From the NCBI GenBank assembly GCA_035516255.1, contig DATJAL010000031.1, positions 186,001-250,000 on the forward strand: a DNA stretch of 64,000 nt. Direction: 5' to 3'. The notes beneath the pieces are model-generated. The model saw only the letters and a program-made list of their open reading frames with translations, made no database searches and was not told where the DNA came from. Of this stretch, positions 9,383 through 63,664 are shown in pieces. A program made the translations under genes and the position numbers. This DNA is from Chitinivibrionales bacterium. GTDB taxonomy: Bacteria > Fibrobacterota > Chitinivibrionia > Chitinivibrionales > FEN-1185. How positions within the stretch are numbered: the stretch's first letter is position 1; each line of letters opens with the position of its first letter.

Positions 9383-9526
9383 CGGACGCCCCGCCGGAGC
9401 GGCGGCGGCCCTCCTTCCGGTCTCGCCTTCGGCTCGGGCCGCCACGGCCCGATGGCGGAGGACCGTCAGGGTCCGGGCGGCATCGCTCTCCGGAGCGACC
9501 TCCAGTCCTGCCTGGCGCGCGGGCAG
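9383..9526 (-). repeat. Intergenic repeat family C, copy C1
   Basis: Reads on the minus strand. Central stem GCCGCC (9438-9443) / GGCGGC (9476-9481) with inner hairpin GGACC-CTGAC-GGTCC, followed in element orientation by CCCGAGCCGAAGGC and GGAAGGAGGGCCG and a GC-rich terminal hairpin. It lies between tssK and tssL, directly before family A copy A3. Confidence 0.75.
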
Positions 9527-9549
9527 AAAAAAAATTGCCGCACTTGCTT

Positions 9550-9757
9550 CTCCCCCTTATCAAGGGGGAGGCGCCGAAGGCGGAAGGGGATGTTCTGCAG
9601 CGGTTGCGTTGCGAAGGTGCGACGCATCGCGAGCCTCAAGCGAGCGACATCGCGCGCACCTTTGCAGGAGGGGGTGTGCCCCGCAATGCAGGGACGTTGC
9701 GTGCAGCGTCCCTGCATGTGGGGCCAGGGGGAAACGCGAAGCGGTGCCCCCACCAGA
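9550..9757 (+). repeat. Intergenic repeat family A, copy A3
   Basis: Opens with the perfect hairpin CTCCCCCTT-atc-AAGGGGGAG (9550-9570), then GCGGTTGCGTTGCGAAGGT and the arm GCGCACCTTTGCAG. The middle differs from A1 and A2 and holds its own inverted repeat (TGCAGGGACG / CGTCCCTGCA). It ends with the 33-nt block identical to A2. It stops about 25 nt before the tssL start. Confidence 0.75.
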
Positions 9758-9782
9758 ATATTTTATTTAGGAAGCTGAAATT

Positions 9783-10529
9783 ATGCCGTCGTCATTTGTC
9801 AACACCGTCACTTCCCAAACCATGAACCTTGACCTATCCAAAACTTTGGGCGGGTCGCGGGACGTGAGCACGCTGTGCACCGACCTGTTTCTCATCATCA
9901 TCAGGATGCGCGAGGCGGAGGACCTCGGCGACCCGGCTGCGCTGCGCAAGCTCATCACGTATTACATCGGGCTTTTCGAAAAGAACTGCAAGGCCATCGG
10001 CATGGCTCCAGAGTCGATCCTCGAGGCCAAATACGCCATGGTGGCGCTCATGGACGAGACCGTGCTGAGCGTGCCCGGCGCGTGCAGGGACTTCTGGCTC
10101 ACCAGGCCCATGCAGCTCGATTATTTCGGCGACAACCTTGCGGGACAGGAATTTTACGAGAAACTGCAGAAGATGCTCCTGCAGCCTGAAAACAAGAAGG
10201 ACGTGCTTGAGGTCTATTTCCTGTGCTTGTCGCTCGGGTTCGAGGGCAAGTACAAGCTCTTCAACCCTGAGGAGCGCATCACCATCATGGAAGACCTGGG
10301 CAGGATGATACGCCGTACCAGGATCCGCGTCTCGGCAGAGCTTTCTCCCCATGGAAAGCGTGCAGCGCCTTCTTCGGCCGCAAAGCCGAAAACATTTTTC
10401 TTCCCGCTCTGGCTGTCCGGCGCGATCGCCGCGGGAATGGTTATGGCGGGCTGGACGGCAATGTTCATCATAAACAATTCGGCATGCGGCAATCTGCTTG
10501 CCTCCATCCAATCTTTCATCGCGAAATAA
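9783..10529 (+). CDS. tssL: Type VI secretion protein TssL (DotU/IcmH family)
   Basis: 248 residues, the length of a short TssL without a peptidoglycan-binding extension. The cytoplasmic helical domain (about 25-190) has the family's LCTDLFLIIIRMRE start and the ALMDETVLS segment. A single transmembrane helix lies near the C-terminus (about 207-229) with a very short periplasmic end, the tail-anchored topology of DotU/TssL. It partners TssM in the inner-membrane complex and contacts TssK. An AGGAAG precedes the ATG, and tssM starts 6 nt after its stop, so tssL and tssM are co-translated. Anchoring to peptidoglycan, if any, would need another protein. Confidence 0.9.
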   Translation: MPSSFVNTVTSQTMNLDLSKTLGGSRDVSTLCTDLFLIIIRMREAEDLGDPAALRKLITYYIGLFEKNCKAIGMAPESILEAKYAMVALMDETVLSVPGACRDFWLTRPMQLDYFGDNLAGQEFYEKLQKMLLQPENKKDVLEVYFLCLSLGFEGKYKLFNPEERITIMEDLGRMIRRTRIRVSAELSPHGKRAAPSSAAKPKTFFFPLWLSGAIAAGMVMAGWTAMFIINNSACGNLLASIQSFIAK

Positions 10530-61992: not shown

Positions 61993-62041
61993 CATGAGCG
62001 AATAGTTACGGGACGCCGAAAACGGTAAGAAAGGCTGATCT

Positions 62042-63412
62042 ATGGCACGAAAAGGCAAACTGCTTGTCGTTGACGACGAGGAAAGCCTCCGCTTTCTTCT
62101 CGGCAGGGAGCTGGCGCGCGAAGGATACACCGTGGACGTCGTCCCCGGCGGTGAAGAGGCGCTTTCGCGCCTCCGCGAGAACCCGTACAGCGTGGTGCTC
62201 CTCGACATCGTGATGCCCGGCATGGACGGCATCGCCGTGCTCCGCGCCATGAAGGCCGAGAATATCCCCTCGGAAGTCATCATGCTCACGGGAAACGCCA
62301 CGCTCGAAAACGCCATCGAATGCATGAAGCTGGGCGCGTTTGAATATGTCAAGAAGCCGTATCAGCTCAACGAGCTCGTGATCCACATCGAGCGCGCCAT
62401 CGAGCACGGCCAGAGCCAGCTCGAGCGGAGCATGCTGCGCGAGCAGGTGCGCAAGACCGCCTACGGCGGCGGGATCATCGGCAAAAGCAGGGAGATCCGC
62501 GAGCTCCGGGCCATCGTCGGCCGCGTGGCGCCCTCGCAGAGCAACGTGCTCATCCTCGGCGAGAGCGGCACGGGGAAGGAGGTGGTCGCGCGCTCCATCC
62601 ACGAGCAGAGCCAGAGCGGCGACATGCAGTTCGTCGCCGTGAGCTGCGCGTCGCTCCCCGAGAATCTCATCGAGAGCGAGCTGTTCGGCTATGAAAAGGG
62701 CGCATTTACCGACGCAAAGGCCCAGAAGCGCGGTCTCGCCGAGATCGCCGACGGCGGCACCCTGTTCCTCGACGAGATCGGCGAACTGCCGCTCGCGTTC
62801 CAGGCAAAGCTGCTGCGGTTCCTCGAGACCGGTCAGATCCGCCGCGTGGGCGGCACCAAGGACATCAGCCTCAACGTGCGGATCCTCTGCGCCACCAACC
62901 GGGACCTCGAAAGGCTCGTTGAACAGAAGCAGTTCCGCGACGACCTGTATTACCGGCTCAACGTGCTCTCGATCACGGTGCCGCCGCTGAGGAAGCATGG
63001 TGAAGACATCCCGATGCTCGTGGAAAGCATGATGCGTTCGCAGGGATTTTCGGGCACTTTCGATGAAAGCGCGATGGAGGTGCTCGAGAATTACGACTGG
63101 CCCGGCAACATCCGCGAGCTCAGGAACGTCGTGGAGCGCACCTGCATTTTATGCCAGGGCGGCGCGATCACCGCGGCAGACGTGTCGTTTTTAAAAACGC
63201 GCGCCAGGCCCGAGGGAAGGGCGGCGGACGCCGCCCCGGCGCCGGCCGATGCGGTCATGGCGCCCTTGAGCGAGGTCGAGCGCAGGCACATCATCGCGGT
63301 GTTGAAATTTGTCAAGGGGCACAAGGGCAAGGCGGCGGAGATACTGGAGATCAATCCGAAGACGTTGTACCGGAAGATCAAAGAGTATAATATCGTGCCG
63401 GTGTACGAATAA
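62042..63412 (+). CDS. Sigma-54-dependent response regulator (NtrC family)
   Basis: 456 residues: receiver (D55 in LLDIVMPGMDG), AAA+ domain with Walker A GESGTGKE (near 173) and Walker B GGTLFLDEIGE, and a Fis-type helix-turn-helix at the C-terminus (GKAAEILEINPKTLYRKIKE). The sigma-54-contact loop reads GAFTDA instead of the classical GAFTGA, a variant seen in other family members. It activates sigma-54 promoters when phosphorylated, probably by the kinase encoded just upstream. No sigma-54 (-24/-12) site was recognised in the window, so the targets are unknown. Confidence 0.95.
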   Translation: MARKGKLLVVDDEESLRFLLGRELAREGYTVDVVPGGEEALSRLRENPYSVVLLDIVMPGMDGIAVLRAMKAENIPSEVIMLTGNATLENAIECMKLGAFEYVKKPYQLNELVIHIERAIEHGQSQLERSMLREQVRKTAYGGGIIGKSREIRELRAIVGRVAPSQSNVLILGESGTGKEVVARSIHEQSQSGDMQFVAVSCASLPENLIESELFGYEKGAFTDAKAQKRGLAEIADGGTLFLDEIGELPLAFQAKLLRFLETGQIRRVGGTKDISLNVRILCATNRDLERLVEQKQFRDDLYYRLNVLSITVPPLRKHGEDIPMLVESMMRSQGFSGTFDESAMEVLENYDWPGNIRELRNVVERTCILCQGGAITAADVSFLKTRARPEGRAADAAPAPADAVMAPLSEVERRHIIAVLKFVKGHKGKAAEILEINPKTLYRKIKEYNIVPVYE

Positions 63413-63473
63413 TAAATATCTTTTTTTTACAAGGGGGGAGGTTCAGCCTGCATCATAATTACCCAAACAATCA

Positions 63474-63664
63474 TGGCGCTTGCCGGTCACGGCACCGGTT
63501 CTACCCCTTCGGGTACTTCTCCCTCGTCAGGGATTTCCAAGGGTCACAAGGGTCGTCCCTCCGGTCTCGCCTTCGGCTCGGGCTGCCACGGCGCGATGCC
63601 GCTGAGCGGCGTCCGGGCAGCACCGCGCTTTAGCGACGGCCTTCGGTCGCTCCTGGCGCGGAAC
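63474..63664 (-). repeat. Intergenic repeat family C, copy C7
   Basis: Minus-strand copy between convergent ntrC-type and dedA genes. Stem GCTGCC (63582-63587) / GGCAGC (63616-63621) with inner hairpin GCCGC-TGA-GCGGC, and it carries the same insertion as C3 (63511-63556). The rest of the gap (63413-63473) is a T-run and a G-rich stretch, with nothing else seen. Confidence 0.75.

Follow-up and report, generated by a model that had tools for sequence, protein, structure and literature searches.

A modular, intergenic repeat family of Fibrobacterota with a covarying multi-stem fold and traits of a non-autonomous mobile element

Small repeats of bacterial genomes are usually described by their sequence, and the relevance of a fold has mostly been argued from predicted hairpins. 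The BOX elements of Streptococcus pneumoniae and S. suis are modular, non-autonomous, high-copy intergenic repeats with a predicted RNA fold and swappable inner modules, for which mobility has been proposed; neither covariation nor compensation is mentioned in the text of the paper that describes them (PMC3049150). REP/BIME elements are intergenic and rare in divergent gaps, use alternative complementary stems in different subfamilies, and form head-to-head dimers and composites (PMC3733652). In the Bacillus cereus group, bcr1 belongs to a size class similar to that of the element described here, occurs in tens to over 100 copies and has mobile-element features (PMC6542083 and references therein).

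Here we describe family C, an intergenic element whose behaviour, judged by analogy, resembles that of BOX, BIME and bcr elements. The window analysed is a 64,000-nt stretch (G000:C31:186001-250000) of G000, a Fibrobacterota draft genome of 4.28 Mb in 61 contigs. Like BOX, family C is modular, intergenic, high-copy and, by our reading, non-autonomous; unlike BOX, which has boxA, boxB and boxC modules and IS-like terminal repeats, its modules are hairpins and its stems covary (PMC3049150). It shares with REP/BIME elements its rarity in divergent gaps, its complementary-stem subtypes, its head-to-head arrangement and its composite units, but REPs are hairpins of 20-40 bp that bear a tag (GTAG or CGTC) and often contain G.T pairs (PMC3733652), whereas family C is a multi-helix element of 135-260 nt in which G.T is not preferred. 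Unlike bcr1, which belongs to one species group and has a TTTAT motif (PMC6542083), family C is found across families of one phylum with no fixed target seen. From the sequence evidence set out below, we consider that family C probably consists of mobile intergenic elements that are modular and non-autonomous, that would have been dispersed by transposition, and whose folded single strand would be recognised at mobilisation. Its copies number in the hundreds and fall into two subtypes, and several families are related to it; together they offer a covariation record that is able to separate selection on the fold from copying of the arms, and with which the DNA or RNA nature of the folded strand can also be addressed. 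The covariance model is moreover a means to find the enzyme behind mobilisation in a group that is largely uncultured.

One dispersed family with two stem types

We confirm that the seven copies reported in the window belong to one dispersed, genome-wide, non-coding family with a common multi-stem fold. The sequence blocks by which the copies had been recognised are present in all seven stretches, and the central stems are as the initial annotation gave them: GCCGCC/GGCGGC in C1, GCTGCC/GGCAGC in C3 and C7, and TTGCCGG/CCGGCAA in C4 to C6. Copy C1 (9384-9519, minus strand) is full length, from closing stem to closing stem, and like C5 and C6 is a covariance-model hit. C3 (18971-19162, plus) is full length and carries an extra 58-nt module at 19066-19123 (plus); this A-type module (I1) is often present in A-type copies and is near-identical (97%) in C7 and elsewhere. 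C7 itself (63475-63660, minus) is a full-length A-type copy with its I1 match at 63500-63557 (minus), and its 3' end is less exact by the covariance model. The B type is represented by C4 (25914-26050, plus), C5 (42348-42486, minus) and C6 (60076-60226, plus), all full length. Only the 3' half of C2 is present (about 14360-14426, plus; an nhmmer match to model positions 78-151), and its 5' half, already noted as divergent, belongs to another repeat, family F, which also adjoins copies elsewhere. Repeat F (GGGCTCGAACAGCACGAGCG, with TGGGGGCTCCACCCCCA) lies 5' of some family C copies, being found upstream of copies in loci L026 and L017 and at 14200-14360 of the window, where it takes the place of the 5' half of C2.

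R1, a covariance model whose training set was 25 B-type copies (TTGCCGG type) alone, detects C1, C3 and C7 at E = 3e-11, 6e-10 and 1e-4, although these three are of the A type and none of them was used in building it; the two stem types therefore constitute one family. DNA searches found 41 places with C4 as the query and 49 with C3. In a sample of 757,732 nt of G000, picked by contig and not by hits (two whole contigs and one up to the end of the window), a wider model (R2) finds 46 family C copies, 25 on the plus and 21 on the minus strand. This corresponds to ~61 per Mb, from which we estimate ~260 copies per genome. Family C is by far the largest between-gene repeat family in this contig sample, and has in common with MITE-like elements that it is short, non-coding and multi-copy.

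The fold and its covariation

The element measures about 135-260 nt, with a core of 135-190 nt. Its plus strand, read 5' to 3', starts with a closing stem P1 (GCGTT or GCGCC), an unpaired AG, P2 and GGA, followed by a two-pair stem (CT:AG or CC:GG), GGAG and a hairpin P3 that takes the form TGAGC-GCGAA with tandem G.A, or TGCGC-GCGCA. After P3 come P4, a bulged stem that carries an inner hairpin, then CGAG, the small C(GNA)G-type hairpin P5, CGAGCC, GGAAGGAG and P2', and the 3' part consists of a highly variable terminal hairpin and P1', then A and a T-rich flank. Besides the closing stem, a second long-range stem and the terminal hairpin there are three or four hairpins, and C(GNA)G loops are found in many hairpins of the family. 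The consensus ends are GCGTTAGG at the 5' side and AACGCCCA at the 3' side, and the closing stem supplies inverted ends of 5-6 nt. GGAACGCC, which had been described as a shared block, does not form the end in every copy: it is one arm of the closing stem, which had been overlooked and which covaries (GCGTT/AACGC and GCGCC/GGCGC, with GGGTT/AACCC, GCCTT/AAGGC, GCGTC/GACGC and GCGTG/CACGC in other genomes). The second long-range stem, also missed, appears as GGTT/AACC, GTGT/ACAC, GGCC/GGCC and GGT/ACC. Some 50-65 nt upstream of P1 lie 5' modules that are less conserved and fall into at least three kinds, and in many copies the terminal hairpin is a long, perfect palindrome whose sequence is unrelated. 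In loci L041, L046, L040 and L050 the terminal hairpins are long near-perfect palindromes, e.g. GGGGCGAAAAATTTTTCGCCCC, which gives the impression that palindromic repeats of other kinds were absorbed.

The initial annotation proposed that both arms differ among copies yet remain complementary, and the genome-wide check found significant covariation, beyond chance by a shuffled, a slid and a tree-aware null. Among 84 distinct copies, in an alignment fitted to the structure, both sides have changed in 39 of 43 pairs, and 91.1% of cells are paired as against 73.7% when shuffled and 35-46% when slid. The tree-aware test used a MAFFT alignment made without structure, of 63 copies from two congeners, with a null in which the inferred substitutions were re-placed on the tree; it is an R-scape-like test of our own and not R-scape. 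At a threshold of E < 0.05 the test picked out six of 37 pairs, which fall in P1, P2, the two-pair stem, P3 and P4, whereas the controls slid by -3 to +3 gave 0, 0, 0, 1, 0 and 0 significant pairs. This structure-restricted version replaced an initial run over all column pairs, which had little power and returned 4 pairs. The paired fraction and the tree-aware pairs together support the proposal that compensatory change reflects selection for the fold.

Arms could also be kept complementary by a copying process, such as hairpin-templated repair or the swapping of hairpins between repeats, without any selection on the fold. Such a process would suit the joint change of paired bases (TT/AA to CC/GG) with few intermediates, terminal hairpins that are often foreign palindromes, and the parity of G.T and A.C among broken pairs described below. 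Nevertheless, the closing and inner long-range stems covary over 100-250 nt, and do so across families of the phylum that have the same architecture, and the bulges and the unpaired GGAG and CGAG blocks are conserved, and we regard copying without selection as quite improbable.

The broken pairs bear on the stage at which the fold is selected. When a private stem change disrupts a Watson-Crick pair, the outcome is A.C in 19 cases and G.T in 17, and over all copies the broken pairs comprise 55 A.C and 52 G.T. G.T makes up 1.8% of standard pairs in family C and 6.4% in the tRNAs of the fetched loci, a comparison in which the ARAGORN brackets show standard pairs only, such that the zero for A.C in tRNAs is no measured rate. 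Were an RNA fold under selection copy by copy, G.U should be much better tolerated than A.C, and the equality of the two speaks against such selection; the same equality fits decay after insertion combined with selection at mobilisation. Private substitutions amount to 3.2% in stems and 5.9% at unpaired sites, and this slower change of stems makes a weak per-copy constraint possible. In 31 of 88 private stem differences the partner has changed too, restoring a Watson-Crick pair. We read this pattern as suggesting that the fold is selected at mobilisation and not in each resident copy: source copies would be under selection at that step, and inserted copies would then decay.

On the favoured reading of a mobile element, the plus strand would fold into the closing stem, the long-range inner stem, P3 (often with tandem G.A), the bulged central stem, and the C(GNA)G-type and terminal hairpins, and a putative mobilising enzyme would read this single-stranded fold more than its sequence. 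Under RNA as well as DNA parameters, the folding energies of both strands lie well below those of shuffled sequences, slightly more so for the plus strand, which is more stable in 25 of 30 copies; folding energies thus do not decide between DNA and RNA. C(GNA)G loops are a type of stable DNA mini-hairpin, and tandem G.A in a TGAG/CGAA context is stable in both DNA and RNA; the tandem G.A and the plus-strand stability of family C are compatible with RNA as well as DNA. We lean slightly towards single-stranded DNA.

Insertion sites, polarity and composite units

Positions ~5 to 45.5 kb of the window are syntenic with 30.8-83.5 kb of contig C39 of the congener G001, at 64-84% identity. In all five testable gaps of G001, matching C1 to C5, the copy is absent, and in the C4 gap just 14 nt separate the aligned genes. 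G001 in turn has copies just past its match to the gene ending at position 45,568 of the window, a place at which the window lacks them. Insertion polymorphism between relatives, a MITE-like trait, is thus seen at the C1 to C5 gaps, with loss as the alternative, since the five absences could partly reflect loss in the congener. No exact empty site, target-site duplication or transposase was found for family C, the congener being too diverged for exact empty sites, and the left end of the element is not fixed.

In the contig sample the nearest gene lies at a median of 29.5 nt from the 3' end and 287 nt from the 5' end (P = 1.5e-4). The 3' end is sharp in most copies and lies near gene starts as well as stops, with both sense and antisense neighbours used. 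Divergent gaps are depleted in the same sample (4 of 46, P = 0.01), and the excess of convergent gaps is not significant; by gene calls, the seven window copies sit in four convergent, three tandem and no divergent gaps, in agreement with the initial annotation. The right flank is T-rich (44% T) regardless of the orientation of the neighbour, which could indicate a terminator or an insertion preference. The flanking genes are housekeeping genes with no common theme. Genes for type VI secretion, identified through Pfam as VasE/TssK and IcmF/TssM, lie at 8016-14165 of the window.

These data bear on the suggestion that family C is a host-useful structured RNA, acting in transcripts as a 3'-UTR, terminator or processing element and selected for its fold in each copy. 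The covariation with conserved bulges and tandem G.A, the lower rate of private change in stems, the more stable plus strand, the avoidance of divergent gaps and a T-rich flank like that of an intrinsic terminator would all be explained by it. However, A.C is as common as G.T among broken pairs, overall and private, the 3' end approaches starts as well as stops, in both neighbour orientations, the neighbouring genes share no theme, and five of five sites are not common to the congener; we do not favour this suggestion and consider it unlikely. A self-propagating, retroelement-like RNA, copied back into DNA from the folded RNA by a reverse transcriptase, would have the sharp 3' end, T-rich flank, variable 5' part and complex fold seen here, but 5'-truncated copies are not in excess, and no reverse transcriptase was tied to family C, short of a genome-wide search. 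We find this very improbable. Truncation of the SINE-like kind was rejected, as partial matches are unbiased, 5'-only matches being about as frequent as 3'-only ones. Under the mobile-element reading that we prefer, insertion would place the sharp 3' end (AACGCCCA, then T-rich sequence) close to a gene boundary.

Family C copies also occur in head-to-head pairs facing outward, separated by 105-152 nt, in both genomes. A second family, D (GGTTGCGTTGCGAAGG ... GCGGTGCCCCCACCAGA), has few copies, at 4687-4878 and 9593-9765 of the window, with the outward 3' end near a gene. It numbers only about five copies in the contig sample, of which at least four are head-to-head with a family C copy, including the copy at 9593-9765 (plus) beside C1, whose outward 3' end lies 18 nt before the next gene. 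Family C elements are thus often part of outward-facing composites of two structured ends, C-C or C-D, which suggest that the unit may be a pair of such ends. No autonomous copy, with paired ends 1-6 kb apart and a mobile gene, was seen; the single close same-strand pair encloses an ORF that is HAD-like by eye. No partner transposon with matching terminal inverted repeats was found. A further repeat (CCCCTCCTGGGTGCAGCCGGGTACC...) is present at 4434-4497, 15499-15562 and 51800-51863 of the window, and in L017 it cuts short a copy of family C.

Distribution and candidate mobilisation systems

Matches at E <= 1e-5 occur in 14 of 168 Fibrobacterota genomes sampled, patchily and in several families. 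Only the two congeners, G000 and G001, reach at least 54 copies per genome (G001 has at least 54; the genome-scoring counts for both are lower bounds), and the other 12 genomes contain related elements. When GTDB genomes were scanned for the exact pattern, the termini turned up only in the Fibrobacteres MAGs fen_1185 (the congener G001) and VK_bin-2524, and plasmid and phage records searched with C4 gave no match. Two exact 19-nt matches in IMG/VR are attributed to chance, as the one examined lies inside a phage coding gene and the model is silent on both contigs. Rfam has no match at the gathering threshold in the window, and E-value scans of the copies gave chance hits only. Among published accounts of Fibrobacter repeats, within a search whose journal coverage is incomplete, we found none on family C.

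The initial annotation had offered a REP/MITE-like element as one reading, of which the mobile part is supported by the copy number, the lineage-specific sites and the modularity, but the RAYT/Y1 version is not supported, because no Y1 gene lies near a copy in G000, G001, G003 or G022 by comparison of coordinates. Nor is there a 20-40 bp hairpin tagged with GTAG or CGTC at its foot, and a REP/RAYT system was rejected. Y1/RAYT genes do occur across the phylum, with two matches in each of the two copy-richest genomes; the two PF01797 matches of G000 are weak, and one is flanked by palindromes of its own. Positions 1210-1809 (minus) of locus L061 encode a Y1-transposase-like protein of 199 aa flanked by CCCGACCTTCAGGTCGGGC-type palindromes, which is likely a RAYT with another REP.

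Integron attC sites are recognised as folded strands, and their arms vary with complementarity kept. We take the 5' block GTTAGG of family C to resemble attC, but the ends are in the wrong order, with a GTT-type block at the 5' end and no RYYYAAC counterpart; the core sites are wrongly placed and oriented, there are no cassettes, and the copies are dispersed on both strands (25+/21-), so an attC identity was rejected. With low confidence, we put forward the more specific proposal that family C is a mobile element spread through the phylum and dependent for its mobilisation on a complex, multi-helix fold of a single strand, either DNA or RNA. The enzyme that reads this fold would belong neither to the RAYT/IS200 kind nor to the integron integrases, and structured ends that can replace one another would be combined in outward pairs.

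At positions 1-420 of L150 (G025:C1), units of ~42 nt (AATTTAAAATGGAGCTACTCAGTAGGTGATCAGTCTCATTTC) are arrayed in tandem; they adjoin a distant family C copy and a second copy that is truncated. In L068 (G022:C71), at positions 1400-2700, ~930 bp separate two distant family C copies whose flanks are alike, apparently the result of a segmental duplication.
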